Shown piece by piece: positions 44,892-55,459 of a stretch of 64,000 bases of DNA. The notes beneath the pieces are model-generated. The model did not search any database, was not told where the DNA came from, and saw only the letters and a list, made by a program, of their open reading frames with translations. Numbering within the stretch: position 1 is the first letter of the stretch; each line of letters begins with the position of its first letter. Made by a program: the position numbers and the translations under genes. The DNA is from Paludisphaera rhizosphaerae (GTDB lineage: Bacteria > Planctomycetota > Planctomycetia > Isosphaerales > Isosphaeraceae). The stretch covers positions 1 through 64,000 of the forward strand of contig NZ_JAALCR010000029.1 in assembly GCF_011065895.1 (NCBI RefSeq), read 5' to 3'.

Positions 44892-45236
44892 TCAGGCCGG
44901 GAGAGCGGCGACGTCCTGGGACTTACCCATCGAGCCGACGGCCTCCTCGGCGGCGGTCCGTGCGTCGTTCGCTCCGTCGATCAGGCCGCGGACGGCGGCG
45001 TTTTCGCGCGGGACGGCGCCTGCGGCGAGCATCACCGGGAAGACCACGCCGTACGAGATCGTGTAGCACGTGGTATAGACGAACCGACTGGCGAACCGGC
45101 CGGCCGATTCCCAGGCCTTCGACGCCGCTTCAACGGCGTCGGCCGAGCCGCGGCGGATGCCGTCGGAGGCCACGGCCAGGACGGTCGGCCCTTCTTCGTG
45201 AGACTCGGCTTGCTCGGTTTCGTGGTGCTCGGACAT
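44892..45236 (-). CDS. Small hydrophobic protein, paralogue of the 54803-55159 protein
   Basis: 114 residues from the ATG at 45236, preceded by GGAGG. An acidic N-terminus (SEHHETEQAESHEEGP) leads to a hydrophobic core with YTISYGVVFPVMLAAGAVPRENAAVRGLIDGA and a short charged tail. The block YGVVFP-x-ML followed by VP-x-ENAAV-x-GLIDGA is shared with the 118-residue protein about 9.9 kb away, at the other end of the P-type ATPase cluster, so the two are paralogues. I do not recognise the family. The segment may be a re-entrant or single membrane element. Confidence 0.7.
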   Translation of the reverse strand: MSEHHETEQAESHEEGPTVLAVASDGIRRGSADAVEAASKAWESAGRFASRFVYTTCYTISYGVVFPVMLAAGAVPRENAAVRGLIDGANDARTAAEEAVGSMGKSQDVAALPA

Positions 45237-45379
45237 GGGTGCCTCCAGGAACCGCTCTCGCGAAACGGAACGCTCGAACTGGTCGCCAACTTCGATTCTA
45301 CGCATTTTACCCAGCCAACGGGGACGATGTTAGGAAATCTCGCCTCCGGAATGCTGAAACGACGTCGACGCGCACCGAA

Positions 45380-46606
45380 TCAGAGCGCCACGGCGAAGCC
45401 CATCAGCGCGATCGTCTGGGGAGCGGCGACTGTGATACCGAAATTGTAGCTCCCGAAAACGGCCAGCCGATCGTTCACGGTCCACAGGCCCCCGCCTCCC
45501 AGGACGGTCACCTGCGGCACGGAATTGCCGACCGTCCCAACGCCCTGGAACTGGAGCAGCCGGGGCAGCGCCGAGGCGTTGTAGAAGCCATGGAAGAAGA
45601 CCTTGAAGTCCTCGACGACCTCGCGCTCGAAGGCCCACTGAAAGCTGAGTTGGTAGGCGATCTGGTTGGCGTTGTTCTCAACGCCGGTCACGCCGACGTT
45701 GTACTCGAGGCCGATCTCGTACGGCAGGCTTTTCTCGAAGAGGACGTTGATCGAGGGCTGGGTGCCGTTGTTGAACGGAGTCGAGCCGAGTTCGGTCTGG
45801 AGATAGACCTCAAGCCCCATCGCGGGGAGGTGATATCGGGTGTTCTCCTCCCAGAAGTTCGCCTTGAAGTCAAAGGCCAGGGGCGAGTATCCGAAGGCGG
45901 CCGGGTGGGCGCCCAGGGCCGACTGATAGGACAGTCCGTTGGAGAAGATCCGCAGCTCCAGATTATCGGTCAGGCCGTATCGAAGGAGCGCTTCCCACTG
46001 GTAAATGCCCGGCTGCAATCCGCTGCGGCTCTTGCTGTAGAGGCCCAAAGGGGAGTTCTCGATGTAGACTCGCCCCTTGGGGATCGTGTACGGCGAATTG
46101 GGGAAGTTCGCGGTGTCCGGGTCTGGGTCGCGAATGTTGATCTTGAGCCGATGGCGGATCTCGTTGTCGAGGGCCCTGTGAGGGTCCTCGTCGTCGAGCA
46201 GCCAGCGGTCCTCGAAGATCAGATTGACCAGGCTGGGAAGGACGAACCGATCGGCGTCGGGTCGTGAAACGCCGTAACGCTCGCGGTAGTAGTCGATCGG
46301 ATCGATGTGAGCGTCGGGGTATTCGTACTTCGGCTCCTCCCCAGGCGCCGCCGTGTCGATCAGGCGATTGCGAAGCGCCGGGCTGATGTCGTCGTCCGCG
46401 GTGACGGTGGACGAGTCCGCGGCCGGTACCCCCGACGAGGGCTCCGGATCCTGACCCCGGACGGTCCTCACGCTGGAATCGAGAGCCGCGCAACCGTCCA
46501 GACCGGAAAGCAGGGTGCAGACGAGCCATACCCAGGCGGCCGGACGAAGAACGCCGGCGAGGCCCCGCCCGCCACGGACCTCGGATACGCTCGTCGGCTC
46601 GCTCAA
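45380..46606 (-). CDS. Outer-membrane transporter-like protein (phenol-degradation meta-pathway family)
   Basis: 408 residues with an N-terminal lipobox-like LDGC near residue 39, which suggests lipid attachment. The body shows the amphipathic beta pattern of a small outer-membrane barrel. The segment NFPNSPYTIPKGRVYIENSPLG closely follows the family signature of the PF13557-type 'transporter' proteins. Their substrates are mostly unknown. It is encoded 114 bases downstream of the Ca2+/H+ exchanger-like gene on the same strand and might belong to the metal-related gene set, but that is an inference. Confidence 0.75.
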   Translation of the reverse strand: MSEPTSVSEVRGGRGLAGVLRPAAWVWLVCTLLSGLDGCAALDSSVRTVRGQDPEPSSGVPAADSSTVTADDDISPALRNRLIDTAAPGEEPKYEYPDAHIDPIDYYRERYGVSRPDADRFVLPSLVNLIFEDRWLLDDEDPHRALDNEIRHRLKINIRDPDPDTANFPNSPYTIPKGRVYIENSPLGLYSKSRSGLQPGIYQWEALLRYGLTDNLELRIFSNGLSYQSALGAHPAAFGYSPLAFDFKANFWEENTRYHLPAMGLEVYLQTELGSTPFNNGTQPSINVLFEKSLPYEIGLEYNVGVTGVENNANQIAYQLSFQWAFEREVVEDFKVFFHGFYNASALPRLLQFQGVGTVGNSVPQVTVLGGGGLWTVNDRLAVFGSYNFGITVAAPQTIALMGFAVAL

Positions 46607-46719: not shown

Positions 46720-47802
46720 TCAGAAGCCCGGCGACGGGGTCTCCGTCAGGTAGAAGAAGCCGATGCCGAGCATGGCATAGACGCCGATCAGCATGAGCCC
46801 GTCGAGCCAACTGGACTCGCCGTCGTCGATCAAGGGCCGGGTGACGAGAACGGCGAGGAAGACGGCGACGACCTCGAACCGCCCGAAGACGAGATCCATC
46901 GGCTTGCCGAGGAAGGCCCCGTAGAACACCAGCACCGGCGCGACCAGCAGGGCCACCTGGATGCTCGACCCGACCGTCACCCCCAGGGAAAGATCCATCT
47001 TCCCCATCCGGGCGAACCCCACGGCGCAGGAGGTTTCCGAAACGTTGCCCGCCAACGCGAGAAGGAAGACTCCGGAGAAAACGGGCGTCAGTCCCAGTGC
47101 CGCCGAAGCGGGCTCGATCGCGTCCGTGAGGATCTCGCTGACGACGGCGAGAACGATCGTCGACCCAGCGAGAATCGCCAGCGCCTTGCCGCGGCTCCAG
47201 CGGCTCTCCTGCTTGGGTTGGTCGGTCAGCTCGACGACCTGGGCTTCGACCGCCTGCTTACCGGCGGCGGGACGGCTGGAGACGACCGTGAAGACCAGGC
47301 TCGCCAGGTAGATCAAGAACAGGACGCCCGCGACCTCGACGCTGATCGCCCGGCTGAAGGAGGTCGAAGTATGGTTGAACACGGCCGGGATGATGAGGCC
47401 GGCCGCCGTCAGCGTCAGGAGCGCCGAGCCAGTCCCCGCCACACGGCGGTTGAACCGCTGCGTCCCGTTCCGGAGCCCGCCGAGGAACATCGAGAGCCCC
47501 AGGGCCAGCAGCAGGTTGCCCAGGATCGACCCCACCAACGATGATTTCACCACGTCGACGAGCCCGCGCCGCAGGGCCGAGGCGCCGATGATGATCTCCG
47601 GGGCGTTGCCGAGCGAGGCGCTCAGCAGGCCGCCCCAGGTTGAACCCAGGTCGGAGGCGAGGGAGTCGGTCGAATCCTGGCTCAATCGAGAGAGCGGGAT
47701 GAGCGCCAGGGCCGAGCAGCCGAAGACCAGGATGGGATGAGCCCCGACCGCATACAGCGCCAGGGCCGCCGGGACGAACGCCAGGAGAAAGTCGAGCCGC
47801 AT
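46720..47802 (-). CDS. Ca2+/H+ exchanger-like (Cax-type) membrane protein
   Basis: 360 residues with about 11 hydrophobic segments and two alpha repeats. The first repeat is canonical (GNAPEIIIGASALR...VKSSLVGSILGNLLLALG). In the second, the usual GNAAEH-type site reads GNVSETSCAVGF, followed by KMDLSLGVTVGSSIQVAL: the Glu is kept, the His is missing. Cax proteins export Ca2+ or other divalent cations in exchange for protons. The altered second site may change ion preference. The gene closes the operon-like series that starts with the P-type ATPases. Confidence 0.85.
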   Translation of the reverse strand: MRLDFLLAFVPAALALYAVGAHPILVFGCSALALIPLSRLSQDSTDSLASDLGSTWGGLLSASLGNAPEIIIGASALRRGLVDVVKSSLVGSILGNLLLALGLSMFLGGLRNGTQRFNRRVAGTGSALLTLTAAGLIIPAVFNHTSTSFSRAISVEVAGVLFLIYLASLVFTVVSSRPAAGKQAVEAQVVELTDQPKQESRWSRGKALAILAGSTIVLAVVSEILTDAIEPASAALGLTPVFSGVFLLALAGNVSETSCAVGFARMGKMDLSLGVTVGSSIQVALLVAPVLVFYGAFLGKPMDLVFGRFEVVAVFLAVLVTRPLIDDGESSWLDGLMLIGVYAMLGIGFFYLTETPSPGF

Positions 47803-47889
47803 GCGACGATCCTTCGTCTCCGGAAGCAGTTCCTGGAGGGGGATGCACGGCGGGCCGGGAGAGGTCCGGCCGCCCAGAGGCCGGCCCGA

Positions 47890-48057
47890 TCAGAGAACTC
47901 GAAGGGCCCTTCTCGACAGCCATTTGACCACGAACCTTGGCCCCGAGTAATAGAGGCCGGCGAAGAGGGCTAACGCCGCGACCAGAGCCATCAAGGCCAG
48001 GGCGAAGCTCAGGCCGACCACGACCCCGGCGAGCGGGGAGGCGAGAATCAATTCCAT
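47890..48057 (-). CDS. Small single-helix membrane protein
   Basis: 55 residues, read directly from the sequence. The first part is a long hydrophobic helix (GVVVGLSFALALMALVAALA, continuing to residue 37), followed by a basic tail (KWLSRRALRVL). The helix runs GV-x-G...SFALALMALVAALA with small residues. It sits in the minus-strand operon, 39 bases after the upstream gene and 87 bases before the exchanger-like gene. No family is recognised. Confidence 0.55.
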   Translation of the reverse strand: MELILASPLAGVVVGLSFALALMALVAALALFAGLYYSGPRFVVKWLSRRALRVL

Positions 48058-48096
48058 GCGCGGGCTCCTTTCGACGAAAGGTTCGGTTCGACGCAG

Positions 48097-48429
48097 TCAC
48101 TTCTCAAGGGGATAACGGCGGTCGAGGTCGTCCAGGAATCGGGCGACTTGCCGCACGCTCTGACGATGCAACCGGGGAAAGCGCTTCACGAAGCCGTCCT
48201 CGACGCGGCGAAAGGCCGAGGGCCAGAGGACCAGACCGCCAAGGATCAGGAAAGGCGAGCCGACCGGGCCGGGGAGCAGGATCCCGCCGATCCCAGCCAC
48301 GATCAGGAGAACGCCGACCTCCTTCGGAAGCCCCTCGATCCTTTGCAACTGCTGGGCCTCGAATGCCTGGTTTTCGGCGGAATCCTCGTCACCAGAACTC
48401 ACGCCGGTCGCGGGCGGGGCCGTGCTCAT
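48097..48429 (-). CDS. Small PGPGW-like membrane protein (copy 1)
   Basis: 110 residues. Two hydrophobic stretches surround the motif ILLPGPVGSPFLILGGLVLWP at about residues 47-70, which resembles the 'putative transmembrane PGPGW' family. A C-terminal amphipathic part holds RQVARFLDDLDRRYP. It is clearly paralogous to the upstream 105-residue protein (shared LPKE-x-GV, LP...G-x-P, GG-x-VLWP, RFP, LDDL-x-RR-x-P). The gene begins 24 bases after the copy-2 stop, so the pair is probably co-translated. Confidence 0.75.
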   Translation of the reverse strand: MSTAPPATGVSSGDEDSAENQAFEAQQLQRIEGLPKEVGVLLIVAGIGGILLPGPVGSPFLILGGLVLWPSAFRRVEDGFVKRFPRLHRQSVRQVARFLDDLDRRYPLEK

Positions 48430-48453
48430 TCGCTCGCCTTTCCGTTGGCCGCG

Positions 48454-48771
48454 TCAGGCGCGGGTCGAGTCGGGGAATCGCCGCTCCAGGTCGTCGAGGT
48501 AACGGCCGATCTGGCGCATCCCCTCGCGGTACGCGGTAGGGAAACGGCGGGCCGCCCAGGTTTCGACCCTGCCGAACGTCCTGGGCCAGAGGACCATCCC
48601 ACCCGCGACGAGCGCGGGGAGCCCCGCCATCGCCGGCAGGATGAAACCGATCGCCCCGACCGAGACGAGCATGACGCCCGCCTCCTTCGGCAGTTCGGCG
48701 ATCCGCGAGGGCGTCGTCCCCGTTGCGGGAGTTGGAGCGTTGGAAGCCTTCTCGGTCGGATTCGTCCTCAC
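48454..48771 (-). CDS. Small PGPGW-like membrane protein (copy 2)
   Basis: 105 residues from a GTG start that overlaps the stop of the upstream ATPase-like gene by four bases, a sign of translational coupling. A disordered Thr/Pro-rich start leads to a membrane segment LPKEAGVMLVSVGAIGFILP and AGLPALVAGGMVLWP, then a charged tail with RQIGRYLDDLERRFP. It is paralogous to the downstream 110-residue protein. Function is unknown. Confidence 0.75.
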   Translation of the reverse strand: MRTNPTEKASNAPTPATGTTPSRIAELPKEAGVMLVSVGAIGFILPAMAGLPALVAGGMVLWPRTFGRVETWAARRFPTAYREGMRQIGRYLDDLERRFPDSTRA

Positions 48772-51101
48772 GCGATCACCTCCCCGGTCGATCCCGCCGC
48801 GCGGCGGTACAGTTGCAGCGTCCCCAGGTTGTTCACCACGACCACGGCCAGCGAGGTCACCCCGAAGAACATCGCCCCGGCGACGCACATCACGCCGGGA
48901 ACCAGAACGAAACGCCGGGCCGATCGACCCGCTTCCTCCTGGGACCGAGCGGTCGAAAGCGCTTCGGCCAGGAGCCCGAGTTCGGGCCGCATCAGAACGG
49001 CCGACGCGGGGCTGTGGTCCGATGCGACCTCGCCGCTGATGCAAACGGCGGCGAAGGCGGATCGCGCGGCGGTTTCCTCGGCCGTGCAATCGCCGACGAA
49101 CATCGGTCGACCTCGCGTCCGGAGGTCCTGCATGAGCCTGGCCTTGTCGGCGGAAGTCAGCCCTCCCAGCGTCGCGTCGACGCCGAGCGCCCGGCCCATT
49201 CGCTCTGCCTCGGCGGTGGGTCGGGACGAAATGAAGGCGACGGGAATTCTCAATCGCCGACGCAGCCGGGCGACCGCACCGGCCGCCGCAGGCGCGTCCG
49301 ATCGCTCGAAGGCAATCGAGCCCGCGTCGCGACCGTCGATTTCGACGGTCAGGCGACCAACGCCGGGTTCGCCCTGGTCGCGGACGACGACCCGGTGCTT
49401 GCCATGCGCAACCGTCACGCCGTCGTCGAAGCCGAGCGGAGCCAGGTCGAGCAGGAAGCCCCCCCTGCTCCGACAGGCGTCCTCCAGGGCCGTCGAGCGG
49501 TCGTCGGCCATGTGCCGGAACGCGGCGGCGGCATATCGAAGGACGAGTTCCTGGGGAAGCTCCGACTGGACCGAGGCCACGCGGACGCCTGGACGGTGCA
49601 GTTCCGGGAAGTCGTCGAGAACCAGGCGGTCGATTCCAGCCAGCCGGCCGAAAGCATCGGGCGACCGGACGACCACGCCGATCCTCGCGCAGGCCGCCGC
49701 GTTGCGCAACGACTCCAGCGGGCCCACCATGCCCGGTCCGGTCGCGTAGTCGGGTCGGAGGACGGCCGTCGCGACGTCGAGTCCGCCCGACATCAGGCCC
49801 ACCCCGGCCGCCACGATGGTCGGCCCCACGGCGCGCTCTGCGAACGCCTCGGCGTCGCGCGGGGTGGCCCTGTCCGGCGCGAAGTTCGTCGCCCCGACCA
49901 GCGCTCGGCCCACGGCCGCCGCCCGAGCATCGGCCGACGGCCGGGAGACCTCCAGGGCCAGCGTCCCATGCAAGACGCGTCCCCCCGCCAGCAGTTCGTC
50001 GCCGGCGTCGACCCGCGAGGCTCCTCGCAGGCCTCGGACGGCGCACTGATCGACGAGCCCGCGACCGCTCGCCACTCGACCGTCGGCGGGCACTGCGTCG
50101 CCGGGGCCGAGTCGGACAAGGTCTCCTGGGAGGAGGCGGTCCGGAGACTCGAACGCCGTTCCCGACCCGCGGTCCACCTGGACGACGGAAGGCATCGGCA
50201 GACATTCCGCCAGCAGCCGCCGACGCCCAGCCGAGAGATCGACCCGCAGCCGATCCTGCCAGTATTTGAACGACCAGGCCATGAGCGCCGAGGCCAGGAA
50301 ATTACCGGTCGCGAGCGTCCCCCCGACGATGACCGTGTAGAGCACGGGGAGGCCGGCCCTGCGTTCCTGGACCTGCACGACCGCCTGGCGGAACGTCTTC
50401 AGGTTCCCCCCGACCAGGATCGTCGCGCAGACGACGCCAAGTCCGGGCGCGGCGAGGTCCGCCGCAGCGCCGACGGCCAGATTCGCATTCGACAGCGCGA
50501 ACGAAGCGCGAGGCGGCGGCGGCGATTCGCGGTCCCACCAGCCGGCGGCGTCCAGCGACTCCTCGACGACCTCGATCATTCGCTCCACCTTCGCGCCGCC
50601 TCGGACGTTGAGCGTCCCCGTCCTTCCCTCGACGCAAACGTGCTTCACGCCCGGCTCGGCGGCGACCCGGCGCTGGCATTCGCGCGCCGCCAGTCGGTCC
50701 TCCTTGAGCCTCGGGTGCCTCAGGCGGAGCAACCCCGGCTGGTCGATCAGTACCTCGCAAGTGGATGCCCGGCCGTCGTTGCGATGGATCGTACACGAGG
50801 ACGCCCAGGCCCTCGGCAGCCTCGGACGGTTCGAGGGCTCGGAGCGCAACGCCCCGGAGAGTCTGGTCAGCACGTCTCGACGATCCGCCGAGCGTTGAGG
50901 TCGAACGTATGCGACCCCCGCAGCGCGGTCGATGCGGATCGAGGCGACTTCCGCGAGGGTGAGGACTCGCTCCAGGAGCCGTCGAACCGAGGCGTCGGCC
51001 CTCGGTCCCAGGGTCCTCGGCGCGCGAATCTCCACCTCGTCCCCCGCCAGGAGGATCTGGGGGGCGTCGCCGGCTCGGCTCGCCTGATGTGCGTGGGGCA
51101 T
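48768..51101 (-). CDS. Catalytically degenerate P-type ATPase-like protein with HMA-like N-terminal domains
   Basis: 777 residues with the full outline of a heavy-metal P-type ATPase: two HMA-like N-terminal regions (about 15-85 and 110-185), membrane helices, actuator region, P/N domains and final helices. Every catalytic signature is altered: the actuator TGE is RGL (356-358), the phosphorylation DKTGT is DDFPE (496 onward), and the hinge GDGxND is GDCTAE (670 onward). The CPx membrane motif is replaced by YATGPGMVGP. The hydrolytic cycle cannot run in this form, so a structural, scaffolding or regulatory role is likely. An R-x8-S-V segment begins at Arg29, paralleling the R-x8-S-L of the intact ATPase downstream in sequence coordinates. 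Confidence 0.85.
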   Translation of the reverse strand: MPHAHQASRAGDAPQILLAGDEVEIRAPRTLGPRADASVRRLLERVLTLAEVASIRIDRAAGVAYVRPQRSADRRDVLTRLSGALRSEPSNRPRLPRAWASSCTIHRNDGRASTCEVLIDQPGLLRLRHPRLKEDRLAARECQRRVAAEPGVKHVCVEGRTGTLNVRGGAKVERMIEVVEESLDAAGWWDRESPPPPRASFALSNANLAVGAAADLAAPGLGVVCATILVGGNLKTFRQAVVQVQERRAGLPVLYTVIVGGTLATGNFLASALMAWSFKYWQDRLRVDLSAGRRRLLAECLPMPSVVQVDRGSGTAFESPDRLLPGDLVRLGPGDAVPADGRVASGRGLVDQCAVRGLRGASRVDAGDELLAGGRVLHGTLALEVSRPSADARAAAVGRALVGATNFAPDRATPRDAEAFAERAVGPTIVAAGVGLMSGGLDVATAVLRPDYATGPGMVGPLESLRNAAACARIGVVVRSPDAFGRLAGIDRLVLDDFPELHRPGVRVASVQSELPQELVLRYAAAAFRHMADDRSTALEDACRSRGGFLLDLAPLGFDDGVTVAHGKHRVVVRDQGEPGVGRLTVEIDGRDAGSIAFERSDAPAAAGAVARLRRRLRIPVAFISSRPTAEAERMGRALGVDATLGGLTSADKARLMQDLRTRGRPMFVGDCTAEETAARSAFAAVCISGEVASDHSPASAVLMRPELGLLAEALSTARSQEEAGRSARRFVLVPGVMCVAGAMFFGVTSLAVVVVNNLGTLQLYRRAAGSTGEVIA

Positions 51102-51111
51102 CGGGCCTCGC

Positions 51112-51309
51112 TCAGGAAGGGGGCGAGTAAGGCTTGAGCTCGCCGCTGGCGACCATTCCTTCCAGGACCTGCGCGATCTTGCTCTCTTCCTTGTCGAACA
51201 CGTTGAAAACCTCGCGCAGGCGGCTGCGTTCGCGAGACAGCTCGAAGCCGAGCCACCCCGCGATCAGGAGGCCGACGACGGCGGGAAGCAGTGGGATCTC
51301 TTCGTCCAC
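51112..51309 (-). CDS. Small single-helix membrane protein
   Basis: 65 residues from a GTG at 51309, supported by an AGGGAG eight bases upstream; a GTG six codons earlier lacks such a site. An N-terminal membrane helix (LLPAVVGLLIAGWLGFEL) is followed by a charged helix (SRERSRLREVFNVFDKEESK) and a short tail. It ends 10 bases before the start of the degenerate ATPase-like gene. Small accessory proteins often accompany P-type ATPases, which makes a subunit role conceivable. No family recognised. Confidence 0.65.
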   Translation of the reverse strand: MDEEIPLLPAVVGLLIAGWLGFELSRERSRLREVFNVFDKEESKIAQVLEGMVASGELKPYSPPS

Positions 51310-51338
51310 GGTGCAGCTCCCTTTCACTTCAGGTCGGA

Positions 51339-51872
51339 TCAGACGAGCTCGATCGAGGCGGCCGACGCCTCGCGCAGGATCTTCACGGCGCCGGAGAAGC
51401 CCTCGCGGTGCAGCTCTCCGCGAACAGCCTTGTCGAGCCGTTCGGCCGTTCGATTCATGTTCACGAACCGGAGGAACTCCTGCAGACGCGCCATCGCGTG
51501 CTCGCCGCTGCGGAACTTGCCCAGGTGGATCCGGAAGCCTCGGAAACGTCCGGCCCCCCCCTGCCCGCCGGCCAGAAGGTCGTAAACCAGCAGCGTCGGG
51601 TCGTGACCGATCAGGGTCGGCTCGCGCCGGAGCACCTCCACCGACTGGTCGGGGGTCAGGATGTAGAGGGAGTCCTGGCGCTGGAATTCGTAGAGGACCG
51701 GCAGATGCTTGCGCACGATCTCCGACACCGGCCGATTCCAGCCGGTGTCGATGAGGAACATATCGAACCTCTTGATCGTCGGGTCGATCGCCGCGGCGGG
51801 CGTCGCGGTCCGGAGGTTGAGCGAAGACGCCGGGGCCTCATGCGTCTTGGAATGGGCAGCTTTTCGAGGCAT
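51339..51872 (-). CDS. Unknown soluble protein in the P-type ATPase cluster
   Basis: 177 residues. A Lys/Ala-rich start leads to a compact core with KRFDMFLIDTGWNRPVSE, VLYEFQRQDSLYIL and TLLVYDLLAGGQGGAG, mixed alpha/beta in pattern. There is no signal peptide or membrane segment. I do not recognise the family. It is preceded by the 103-residue gene (25 bases) and followed by the 65-residue membrane protein (29 bases), clearly within the same transcript as the two ATPases. Confidence 0.7.
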   Translation of the reverse strand: MPRKAAHSKTHEAPASSLNLRTATPAAAIDPTIKRFDMFLIDTGWNRPVSEIVRKHLPVLYEFQRQDSLYILTPDQSVEVLRREPTLIGHDPTLLVYDLLAGGQGGAGRFRGFRIHLGKFRSGEHAMARLQEFLRFVNMNRTAERLDKAVRGELHREGFSGAVKILREASAASIELV

Positions 51873-51897
51873 GCGAGGTCTCCCGGGAGCCGTCTCT

Positions 51898-52209
51898 TCA
51901 GAGCCCGAGGTCCGTCACGATCGAGTCGATGAAGCCTACGGCTTTGGCCCGATGCCGCTGGGTCGCCATGGCCTTGGCGGCCAGCGACAACTCGGCCACG
52001 ACCTGCATCTCCTCACGGCCGAAGTTCACGACGAAGGCCAGGAGAGGGGCCTTGATCGTGAACTGAGGCAGGTGGGGATGCCACTGGAACTCGGTCGGCA
52101 TCGGGATCTCGCCGCGACGACGCTCGTACTCCCCGCTGATCGCGGAGCGAGCCGCCTCGTCAAGCGGCCGCTGAAGACGCCTTGTGTACAGCGTTTCTTT
52201 CCATCGCAT
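51898..52209 (-). CDS. Unknown small protein overlapping the intact ATPase gene
   Basis: 103 residues; its ATG at 52209 lies 50 bases inside the 3' end of the intact P-type ATPase gene, in another frame. A start at Met37 would remove the overlap but shorten the protein to 67 residues. Visible core: PTEFQWHPHLPQFTIKAPLLAF, VVNFGREEMQVVAELSL and KAVGFIDSIV, a small alpha/beta unit. Partial resemblance to the PHA-granule-region family was considered but is weak. Function unknown. Confidence 0.6.
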   Translation of the reverse strand: MRWKETLYTRRLQRPLDEAARSAISGEYERRRGEIPMPTEFQWHPHLPQFTIKAPLLAFVVNFGREEMQVVAELSLAAKAMATQRHRAKAVGFIDSIVTDLGL

Positions 52210-54691
52210 GGCTGTGGGTCAACTCCAGCCGATACCGGCGCTCGGCCTCGATCTTGGCCGCTTTCCGCAGGGGCATCACGCCGTTGGCCAGCGCGGCCAG
52301 GGCGGCGACGTTGTTGGTGACGACGGAGGCCATGATCCCGAAGCCCATCGTGAACACGCCCGCGATGCAGGCTATGTTCGGCGCCAGGATCATCGACCAG
52401 CTCCGCTTGACGTTCCGGTCCAGGTCGCGGGCCACGTCGCGGAGGTCGCAGAGTTTCGCGAGGCCCTCCTCCAGGAAGACGATGTGGGCCGTGTCGGTGG
52501 CGATCGACGAAGCCCCCCGCAGCGAGATCGACACGTTGGCCTTCTTCAGGGCGATCGAATCGTTGATGCCGTCGCCCACGAAGCAGACCTTCTTCCCTTC
52601 CTTCTGCAGCCTCTCGACGTAGTCGGCCTTGTCGGCGGGGAGCACCTGAGCGAAGTAGCGGTCCATCCCCAGCGACTCGGCCAGTTTTTTCGTCGGAGCC
52701 TCGTGGTCGCCGGAGATGATCGCGATGTGCTTGATCCCGCGCTCTCGCAGACCGGCGATGATCGACTTGACCTCGGGCCGGACGGAAGCCTGCAACTCGA
52801 TCGCCCCGCCGAGATGGTCGTCGACGCCGACCATGACCATGGTATAACCCTCGCGATGGGCCTCGTCGAGGGCCTGCTTGACTTCGGGGGTCAGCTCGAT
52901 CCCCTCGGTCTCCAGGAACCGTTTCGAGCCCACGCGGACCGTCCGACCGTCGATGTGGACCGTGATCCCGTAGCCCACCTTGTACTGGGTCTCGTCCGTC
53001 TCCGGCAGGGAGAGGCCGACCTCCTTGGCCTTGTGCAGGATGGCCAGGGCGATCGGATGGTGGAACTTCTTCTCAGCCGCGGCCGCGTATCCCAGGATCT
53101 GATCGGCGTCGAAGCCCTTCGAGGCAATGACTCGGCCGACCTCCGGGCGTTCGCGGGTCAGCGTGCCGGTCTTGTCGAAGAGGACCGTGTCGACCTCGTT
53201 CATCAACTCGAGGGCCCGGCCGTCCTTGACGAGGATCCCCTTGTTGGCGCACAAGGTCAGCGAGCTGAGCATCGCCAGCGGGGCCGCCATCCGGATGCCC
53301 GTGCCGAAGTCGCTGTTGAGGACGGCCACCGCGCCGGCGGGGCCCATCGCGGCCATCCCCACCGACCCGATGGCGAGCGTTGGGATCACCGCCTTGTCGG
53401 CCAGCCGTTCGCCCTTGTGCTGGGAGGAGAGCTTGTAGCCGGCCGTGTCGTTGAGGATCTGCGAGATCTTCGCCGAGGCCGTCTCGCTCCCCGAGGTCTC
53501 GACCGACACGAAGACCTTGCCCGCGACCATGATCGTCGAGGCGAAGACCCGGTCGCCGACCCCTTTCTCGGCGGGCGTCGACTCGCCCGTCAGCGCGTGC
53601 TGGTCGATCATCGCCATCCCCTCGACGACGTGGCCGTCGACGGGGACCACCTCGCCGGTGTTGACGACGATCGTATCGCCCTGCTGGAGCTTGTCGACCG
53701 AGACCTGGACCTCGACGCCGTCGCGGATCATCCAGGCGTATCTCGGCTGCTTGCCGAAGGCGTTGAGCAGCATCTTCTTCGAGTCGTCCTGCGTCCGTTT
53801 GACCAGCACCCTGCCGAAGCTGAGGCACCAGCAGAGGACCGCCCCGGGGAAGATCGACATCGTTCCCAAACAGCCGACCACGACGATCGCGTCCAGGACG
53901 TCCACCCCTAGCCGCTTCTCCTCGAAGAGGACGCTCTTCGCCTCCTTGAACGTCGGGATCGAGGTGTAAGCGAACAACCCGGCCGCCACCGGGAGGAGCG
54001 GCGGGAAGGCGAACTGGGCCACGGCCGCGAAGGGGACCGAGGCCGTGCAGAGCGGCAGGTGGAGGTCCAGCTTGTCCAGCTTCTCGGGATGCTCGGCGTT
54101 GTCGAGCGCGGTCGAGACGATCTCGATCACCTGATCGCGGGTGAGCTGGGCCGGGTCGTAGTCGACCTGGACGAAGCACCGGATCGAGCCCGTGGAGTAC
54201 TTCTCGATCCCCAGGATGCTCATCAGCTCGCGCTCGATCGCCTGGCAGAGGTCGTTCTTGCGATAGAGCACTCGGTTGCGGAGGCGGATTCGACCCGGAC
54301 GATCAACCTGGATCTCCCAGGAGCCGCTCGCCGGAGCAGCCGTCGTCGCCGGAGCATCGACCCGGACGTGGCGAATCGAGCCGTCCCGCGCGTGGGAAAC
54401 CAGGCGCTGAGGCGGGGCTGACTGCGCAGGAGCCTCGGGATCAGCCCGCCGAAGGGCGGCCGAGATCCGGGCGACGACCGCCTGAACGGTCCAGGACTTC
54501 GGGCAGAAGCGAACCTCGGCGGCGGGGGAGTCGCCGGGAATGAAGGCGACCTCGGTGACTTCCGGAGCTTGCATCACCCGATCGAGAAACCGCCGGCAAA
54601 GAGAGCCGTCGGGATCGCCGAAAAGGGTCCGACTCGAGAGCCGTACCACGCCCCCGGTTGGGAACGTGACGGCCAGATCCAGGCTGCTCAT
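52160..54691 (-). CDS. HMA-type P-type ATPase, intact; P1B-6-like
   Basis: 843 residues. Two HMA-like domains lead (about 5-82 and 125-200), each opening with a G-x-x-(V/I)RL element. Catalytic motifs are complete: TGES (368-371), DKTGT with Asp506, and GDGIND around 706. The ion-pathway motif is not CPx: the segment reads FGTGIRMAAPLA, so copper or zinc transport of the usual P1B type is unlikely. An R-x8-S-L motif spans Arg21 to Leu31; from memory, this type of motif marks FezB/FezC of ferrosome clusters, whose P1B-6 ATPases load iron. Metal specificity is not proven here. The gene starts 111 bases after the 118-residue small-protein gene. Confidence 0.85.
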   Translation of the reverse strand: MSSLDLAVTFPTGGVVRLSSRTLFGDPDGSLCRRFLDRVMQAPEVTEVAFIPGDSPAAEVRFCPKSWTVQAVVARISAALRRADPEAPAQSAPPQRLVSHARDGSIRHVRVDAPATTAAPASGSWEIQVDRPGRIRLRNRVLYRKNDLCQAIERELMSILGIEKYSTGSIRCFVQVDYDPAQLTRDQVIEIVSTALDNAEHPEKLDKLDLHLPLCTASVPFAAVAQFAFPPLLPVAAGLFAYTSIPTFKEAKSVLFEEKRLGVDVLDAIVVVGCLGTMSIFPGAVLCWCLSFGRVLVKRTQDDSKKMLLNAFGKQPRYAWMIRDGVEVQVSVDKLQQGDTIVVNTGEVVPVDGHVVEGMAMIDQHALTGESTPAEKGVGDRVFASTIMVAGKVFVSVETSGSETASAKISQILNDTAGYKLSSQHKGERLADKAVIPTLAIGSVGMAAMGPAGAVAVLNSDFGTGIRMAAPLAMLSSLTLCANKGILVKDGRALELMNEVDTVLFDKTGTLTRERPEVGRVIASKGFDADQILGYAAAAEKKFHHPIALAILHKAKEVGLSLPETDETQYKVGYGITVHIDGRTVRVGSKRFLETEGIELTPEVKQALDEAHREGYTMVMVGVDDHLGGAIELQASVRPEVKSIIAGLRERGIKHIAIISGDHEAPTKKLAESLGMDRYFAQVLPADKADYVERLQKEGKKVCFVGDGINDSIALKKANVSISLRGASSIATDTAHIVFLEEGLAKLCDLRDVARDLDRNVKRSWSMILAPNIACIAGVFTMGFGIMASVVTNNVAALAALANGVMPLRKAAKIEAERRYRLELTHSHAMERNAVHKASSAAA

Positions 54692-54802
54692 CGATTGTGG
54701 GCCTCGAGCGTCGGTGATCGGAGTAGTCCGGCGTCGGGGGAGAGGGAGCCGACGACGACGATTCGGAAGGGCGTTTGCAATCGAAGGGCGAAGTCGCCCG
54801 CG

Positions 54803-55159
54803 TCAGGACGACGGTGATTCCGACGCGCCGCTTTCGGGCGCCGCCGCGTTCTTGGCCTTCATCTCCTCAATGAGATCCATCGCCGCCCGGGCCCCGTCGA
54901 TCAGCCCATGAACGGCGGCGTTCTCCTTGGGAACGAGATTGACGACCAGCATCGTGGGGAAGACGACGCCGTAGGAAACGCCGTAACACGCCTTGTAGGT
55001 CAACCCGGAGAGCATCCCGCCGATCGCAGGGACCGCCCTCGACGCGGCCTCCGCTGCATCGCCAACGCCATCTTTAGCAGCCTGAACCGCGGCATCAAGG
55101 GCATCAGCAACCGAGTGCAACGGATCGCCGCCGGTTGAATTCACAGCCTCCTCGGACAT
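54803..55159 (-). CDS. Small hydrophobic protein, first gene of the P-type ATPase cluster
   Basis: 118 residues from the ATG at 55159 (GGAG 9 bases upstream); a GTG four codons earlier is possible. After a charged helical start (about 1-40) comes a hydrophobic stretch (SGLTYKACYGVSYGVVFPTM), then VPKENAAVHGLIDGA and an Ala/Lys/Glu tail. It is paralogous to the 114-residue protein at 44892-45236. As the first gene of the cluster it may be a membrane-associated structural component. The family is not recognised. Confidence 0.7.
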   Translation of the reverse strand: MSEEAVNSTGGDPLHSVADALDAAVQAAKDGVGDAAEAASRAVPAIGGMLSGLTYKACYGVSYGVVFPTMLVVNLVPKENAAVHGLIDGARAAMDLIEEMKAKNAAAPESGASESPSS

Positions 55160-55459
55160 GACACGCTCCACGGAGGGTTTTTAGTCTGGCCAAAGAACGC
55201 AGAGATATAAAGATATCGAAAAATCGGCAGGGATAACCTTAGACAATCGTAATCTTAGCCTATCCTCCCCCGATTATCTGTCAAAGTTCTTGTTGATCAC
55301 ATTTTTCGTTTTCGCCGACCCAATCGGCATTCTTCCGCCGACCGTCAAAATCGGAAAACCTGAGAACCGGGAGTTCGCGGCGTGGATCGTCCGACCTCGA
55401 CCTTCCAGTCTCGTATAAGATCGAACATCGACATCCGATTCGCCAACAGGAGTCCACGC
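55160..55459. promoter_or_regulatory. Divergent promoter region of the metal-cluster operon and the molybdopterin oxidoreductase
   Basis: 300 bases between divergent genes with an AT-rich core (55195-55330). No clear metal-regulator operator was found: an isolated GATTATC at 55272 is palindromic around its centre but not a Fur box. This is the most likely position for regulation of both transcripts. Confidence 0.45.

Follow-up and report, generated by a model that had tools for sequence, protein, structure and literature searches.

A conserved gene cluster encoding an intact and a degenerate sister P-type ATPase in Paludisphaera rhizosphaerae

Gene content of the locus

A cluster of ten genes (N122, A, S103, S177, S71, B, P110a, P110b, M55 and CAX) lies on the minus strand of the window, that is, the whole stretch of 64,000 nucleotides that was analysed. 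The first-pass annotation had described about ten packed minus-strand genes at this place. All of the open reading frames of the set were confirmed on that strand, and they are tightly packed with overlaps or short gaps.

The first gene of the set, N122 (54803..55171, minus strand), encodes a small hydrophobic protein with the sequence pattern YxxxYxxSYGVVFP...IPxxNAxVHGLVDGA and with no match in Pfam or NCBIfam; its true start is probably an ATG inside the annotated frame. The gene A (52160..54691, minus) encodes an intact P1B-like ATPase of 843 amino acids, identified from its TIGR01525 match, its motifs, its orthologues and its position in the tree. The gene S103 (51898..52209, minus) overlaps the end of A and encodes a soluble protein of 103 amino acids. 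The gene S177 (51339..51872, minus) encodes a cytosolic protein predicted from a structure model to have a Cys-less thioredoxin-like fold. The product of S71 (51112..51327, minus) contains one transmembrane helix and a conserved FxxFDxExxxIAxxLE helix. The gene B (48768..51101, minus) encodes a degenerate paralogue of A, 777 amino acids in length, that is without a working phosphorylation loop.

The genes P110a (48454..48771, minus) and P110b (48097..48429, minus) are paralogues that encode PGPGW-like small membrane proteins. The start codon of P110a is a GTG at 48771, and there is a 4-nt overlap with the stop codon of B. The likeness to PGPGW (PF09656) stays below the cut-off, with 12.6 bits for P110 (cut-off, 23.3) and an E value of 0.1 for P110b. 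The gene M55 (47890..48057, minus) encodes a membrane protein of 55 amino acids and is present also at loci L047 and L051. The last gene of the ten, CAX (46720..47802, minus), had been described as Ca2+/H+ exchanger-like; its product matches the calcium/proton exchanger family TIGR00378 with 290.7 bits (cut-off, 211), in agreement with that description. Two further genes extend the set downstream on the same strand, and both of their families recur at other loci. OMP (45380..46606, minus) encodes an outer-membrane barrel of the Phenol_MetA_deg family (PF13557, 41.1 bits), whereas N137 (44892..45305, minus), which closes the set, is a paralogue of N122 with 39% identity to it.

The small accessory families have no match among the Pfam or NCBIfam profiles. 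The model of S177 has a pLDDT of 81; its best structural match has a Z score of 7.6, with many matches tied, and the Foldseek E value is 0.03 at best. The CxxC pair is absent from S177. Homologues of S103 were also found without a nearby ATPase A (L050:10207-10518, L058:9924-10235 and L062:10054-10365), and S103 may have another partner besides A. At one locus (L047:13677-14705) an EcsC-family protein (PF12787) that matches the N122 profile occupies the place of CAX, and similar N122-matching proteins of 340-370 amino acids are found at L049, L064, L106, L120, L123 and L135.

The intact ATPase A

ATPase A matches TIGR01525 with 416.7 bits (cut-off, 346) in a profile search and contains the complete catalytic motifs TGES, DKTGT, HP and GDGIND. 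The fourth transmembrane segment (TM4) reads DFGTGIRMAAPLA and is free of Cys, so that the CPx metal motif is absent; close orthologues read GIRMAAPLA. These results bear out the earlier description of A as an intact HMA-type ATPase without a CPx motif. The N-terminal part of A is HMA_2-like, and the HMA_2 domain is kept in the orthologues. Across 81 A sequences, the catalytic residues show little or no variation, and the P-domain ranks with the best-conserved regions of the protein (0.87-0.95 identity). A and S103 form a single fusion protein in four genomes (L061, L064, L065 and L066), with S103 at the C-terminus.

The P-type ATPases of the searched family in the genome of P. rhizosphaerae comprise two CPC types, one TPC type, KdpB, A and B, and therefore include no YSC-type pump. 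Two variants of A were observed elsewhere. At L123:9001-11682, the A protein has DNTGT for DKTGT (Lys to Asn), which is due either to an error or to a gradual loss of activity in this A. A lone A-type ATPase with 43% identity is located on plasmid pMRAD05 of Methylobacterium radiotolerans (L177:14001-16454), where the annotated gene table holds no companions.

The degenerate ATPase B

ATPase B matches the ATPase families of A weakly, and its catalytic motifs are missing according to the profile search and the motif check. The Glu of TGE, the K-T-G-T that follows the phosphorylated Asp, the HP motif and GDGxND are degraded in the 56 B sequences, none of which has the complete set of catalytic motifs (DKTGT, TGE and GDGxND). 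The Asp itself is kept in 32 of the 56, including the window copy, in which DDFPE replaces DKTGT. The earlier description of the second ATPase as catalytically dead is refined by these results: the phosphorylation Asp is still present, and it is the rest of the loop and the TGE, HP and GDGxND motifs that are lost.

Polar residues within the membrane are kept in B: the TM4 Asp in 56/56 sequences, the TM5 Asn in 53/56 and the TM6 Asn in 54/56. The window copy has Gly at the TM5 Asn position and keeps DYATG in TM4. The membrane parts are the best-conserved parts of B (0.41 and 0.48 identity), whereas the second part of the P-domain reaches an identity of only 0.30. An AlphaFold2 model of B shows a full P-type fold (pLDDT 90.1, pTM 0.85). 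The nearest solved chain is 7r0g, a copper P1B ATPase (Z 28.8, rmsd 5.5 over 471 residues), although a modelled fold shared with P-type ATPases says nothing on the function of B.

The degraded motifs, together with the low identity of other B proteins to the window copy (24-52%), would fit a decaying relic that persists because it is part of the operon. That B is such a relic is highly improbable, however, considering the long open frames of the 56 B sequences over several phyla, the retention of the TM4 Asp and the TM5 and TM6 Asn, the preferential conservation of the membrane parts and the confidently predicted full-length fold.

In two trees, A and B form monophyletic sister clades with a support of 100 each, which points to a single old duplication that preceded the spread of the system. 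Of the 35 unique loci with 5 kb or more of flank on each side, 32 have B no farther than 7 kb from A; B is missing from the other three and is thus not strictly required. Two different degenerate ATPases were observed beside ATPase A at a Spartobacteria locus (L131:2325-7130).

Distribution and conservation of the gene order

ATPase A was detected in 29 of 45 Isosphaeraceae genomes; the genomes examined in this family include Tautonia sociabilis and Aquisphaera insulae. S103 and B were each detected in 23 of 59 relatives, all of them from Isosphaeraceae. A phylum-wide search of 392 genomes with a strict cut-off did not find A outside the family of the window. A scan of genome contigs from 84,980 species retained 80 loci with A orthologues, including loci from other families and phyla. 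Orthologues with 50-79% identity occur in Methylococcaceae, alphaproteobacteria, Azomonas and Verrucomicrobiota. The taxa that carry A include Methylolobus, Methylotetracoccus, Rhodopila, Xanthobacteraceae, Schlesneria, Verrucomicrobiota, Rhodoblastus acidophilus DSM 142, Azomonas macrocytogenes and Syntrophaceae; Aquisphaera insulae and, within Methylolobus, M. aquaticus are among the carriers.

The recurrent gene order is N122 - A - S103 - S177 - S71 - B - P110 - M55/CAX - OMP. Largely this order is found in more than 10 Isosphaeraceae loci and in Methylococcaceae, and N122, S177, S71, B and P110 follow one another in the same order at several loci beyond Isosphaeraceae. Near the 79 unique A genes, many of whose loci are cut by contig ends, the neighbours counted were N122 (65), B (55), S177 (35), P110 (32), S71 (29), CAX (18) and OMP (14). 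The loci are related by descent, and the recurrences are therefore not independent events. The recurrence of the order in both Isosphaeraceae and Methylococcaceae excludes chance for the cluster. Variation of the neighbours between related genomes, which the first-pass annotation had named as a point against the grouping, was not seen at random. The gene set is conserved across phyla, and this conservation supports a real system.

Other genes were observed near remote loci. An amino-acid permease of one family is found near the A/B pair at Azomonas, Rhodovastum and Spartobacteria loci (L137:13672-15123), and SulP-like and sulfate-binding-like genes are found near others.

Relationship to ferrosome operons

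The first-pass annotation had taken the R-x8-(S/T)-L motif and a P1B-6 ATPase as the marks of fez clusters, which give rise to iron-storing ferrosomes, and had proposed a ferrosome-like or other metal-compartment cluster, possibly a distinct variant, for the present locus. According to PMC12016538, the fez operon of Rhodopseudomonas is RPA2333-2338, and FezC is a DUF4405-like cytochrome according to PMC10979944.

A six-gene operon was found in three Rhodopseudomonas-like genomes (5.0-5.3 Mb, from the family of a Xanthobacteraceae MAG). This operon encodes a YSC-type ATPase, three short hydrophobic proteins and two HMA_2-like proteins and is adjoined by a Fur-family gene. In Desulfobacterota, the YSC-type ATPase adjoins FeoA genes. 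From the number of genes and the Fur-family and FeoA neighbours, read against PMC12016538, we infer that the YSC clade corresponds to FezB/P1B-6.

In a tree of 53 sequences, the YSC clade has a support of 99.2/99. Its sister group, which comprises L273, Gloeothece, the AAP pump of L320, B and A, has a support of 97.6/99. The two groups are joined at 99.6/99, apart from the P1B-1, -2, -4 and -5 types. On its sequence, A is kin to the putative FezB, yet outside that clade. The P1B-6 assignment raised earlier for A is therefore not borne out, although A belongs to the sister group. The putative FezB clade has DYSC, with a Cys in TM4, and LHN, with a His in TM6, at positions where A instead has DFGT and TNN.

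The R-x8-S-L motif is present in A at residues 21-31, as the first-pass annotation stated, but at that place in this genome only. It was found within the first 60 residues of 6 of 85 A proteins, at scattered positions, compared with 3.2% of unrelated genes. The motif was rejected as a signal because its frequency in A proteins is at about the background level. No R-x8-(S/T)-L was found when the N-terminal 70 residues encoded by the six genes at L316 and L317 were inspected, and the motif is thus at most a putative fez marker.

A profile search of the accessory proteins, as had been proposed earlier for FezA/FezC, gave no match to the putative fez accessory families. N122, S71, P110, S103 and S177 reached a probability of at most 3% against four such families in hhalign, in which the positive control reached 95%. 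No match to PF14358 (DUF4405, FezC-type) was found in this genome. DUF4405 in Xanthobacteraceae was rejected as a route to fez clusters, the three best loci having no ATPase nearby. A protein of 80-95 amino acids encoded upstream of A in many relatives weakly resembles (57%) a small protein upstream of FezB-like pumps; this weak match could be due to chance for a glycine-rich helix, and the protein is missing in the window.

The pairing of a pump with a dead copy has apparently evolved on more than one occasion. In two Desulfobacterota genomes (L266:6125-10257 and L267:2093-6395), a FezB-like YSC ATPase adjoins a second, degenerate copy, and in the L267 copy DKTGT has become NKAGI and GDG has become GGG.

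A ferrosome-type system, in which A, B and the small membrane proteins would form lipid-bounded stores of iron or another metal, is decidedly unlikely. It would agree with the joint clade of A and the putative FezB (99.6/99), with the HMA_2-type N-terminal part and the several short hydrophobic proteins common to both, with the degenerate second ATPase in the FezB-like operons of L266 and L267, and with the small protein upstream of A in relatives. However, A lies outside the FezB clade (97.6/99) and is without the TM4 Cys and TM6 His, the motif is not conserved, a FezC-type gene is absent from the genome, and the window accessories have no profile match to the putative fez accessories, the weakly similar upstream protein being missing among them. 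On these same points, membership of the locus in the canonical ferrosome group was rejected. What stands of the ferrosome-like proposal is the kinship of the pump with the putative FezB; the YSC ligands, the motif, FezC and the accessories are not matched. The suggestion of a distinct variant came nearer to the truth than that of a ferrosome, and a metal compartment would be hypothetical.

Proposed function and cargo

On balance, it is somewhat probable that the locus encodes a membrane transport system with two sister P-type ATPase subunits, a hydrolysing A and a non-hydrolysing partner B, together with small helper proteins. In such a system, A would split ATP and move a cation. B would be an old duplicate that has no working phosphorylation loop, with its P-type fold and the polar ion-path residues still in place; most likely it would serve A as a non-hydrolysing structural, gating or ion-hand-over subunit. 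The small membrane proteins N122, P110, M55 and S71 may scaffold or regulate the A-B pair. S103 would sit on the C-terminus of A and act on it, as the S103-A fusions in some relatives suggest, and S177, going by its model, may be a Cys-less thioredoxin-like adaptor. The conservation of the genes, the phylogeny, the residues lost and kept in B and the S103-A fusions are observed; from them we infer the A-B complex, the direction of transport, the substrate and any compartment.

A hard divalent cation (Ca2+, Mn2+, Mg2+ or Fe2+; perhaps Ca2+) appears more likely as the cargo than Cu or Zn, because there are no Cys or His ligands in TM4 and TM6 and CAX is a frequent neighbour. The missing Cys and His are a weak indication of the substrate.

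CAX is located within 9 kb of A at 18 of the 79 unique loci, in Planctomycetota and Methylococcaceae and mostly on the same strand. This proximity and the absence of soft-metal ligands from A would suit a calcium module, in which A, with the aid of B, would export Ca2+ or load a Ca2+ store while CAX works alongside. Such a module is nonetheless unlikely, as CAX is absent from most loci and the TM residues of A are, to our knowledge, unlike those of known Ca2+ pumps. It is also distinctly improbable that A, with B as its accessory subunit, transports a cargo other than a metal ion (e.g., H+, K+, a polyamine or a lipid). The usual metal ligands are absent from TM4-6 of A, and amino-acid permease or SulP neighbours occur at some remote loci, but the best family match of A is to the heavy-metal P1B ATPases, and its orthologues keep the HMA_2 domain.

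The two-subunit cation transporter favoured above can be extended, tentatively, to a hetero-oligomeric P-type ATPase. B would then be a conserved pseudo-pump that predates the spread over several phyla, has kept its ion-binding residues, has lost hydrolysis and gates or relays ions. The small membrane proteins would possibly shape a dedicated cation-storing membrane compartment parallel to ferrosomes.

P-type ATPases are commonly viewed as one-chain catalysts that have, at most, unrelated helper subunits. P-type ATPases as such are known, whereas the conserved sister pseudo-pump and the accessory set are missing from the family libraries used. A narrow search of the open-access literature, which is not proof of novelty, found no paper linking a pseudoenzyme with a P-type ATPase, and a search of the same kind found none on P-type ATPases of Isosphaeraceae. 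Retained in planctomycetes, methanotrophs and other bacteria, a catalytically silent sister chain of this kind would make a pseudoenzyme partner inside the P-type ATPase superfamily. The sister group of the putative FezB, with its different intramembrane ligands, provides a test case for what makes a pump build a ferrosome.

Comparison with known systems

The locus resembles fez operons in its sister-clade ATPase, in the HMA_2-type N-terminal region of that ATPase and in the presence of several short hydrophobic proteins in the operon. It differs from them (the FezB clade being putative) in that A is without DYSC and LHN and FezC and matching accessories are absent. The window locus adds the conserved degenerate ATPase, S177, S103, the PGPGW-like proteins and CAX.

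A plasmid locus of Gloeothece verrucosa (L178) also carries a Cys-less TM4 ATPase (DFGTGIRVSVP) beside a shortened ATPase without DKTGT. At this locus (L178:5881-11363), a DUF5132 protein is encoded between the Cys-less HMA_2 ATPase and a protein of 522 amino acids annotated as 'HMA2 domain-containing'. The Gloeothece locus differs from that of the window in having DUF5132 in place of N122 and a partner of only 522 amino acids. Both of its ATPase proteins group together in the first tree, and the pairing may therefore be a separate duplication.

KdpFABC is likewise a P-type ATPase with membrane partners, one of which is a single-helix peptide. KdpA, however, is a channel-like protein and not a paralogue of the ATPase, unlike B. 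The mycobacterial CtpC with PacL/DUF1490 also pairs a P1B pump with a small membrane protein of one helix, but the CtpC-like ATPase beside DUF1490 at L226 differs from A in having a CPC motif and is placed elsewhere in the tree.
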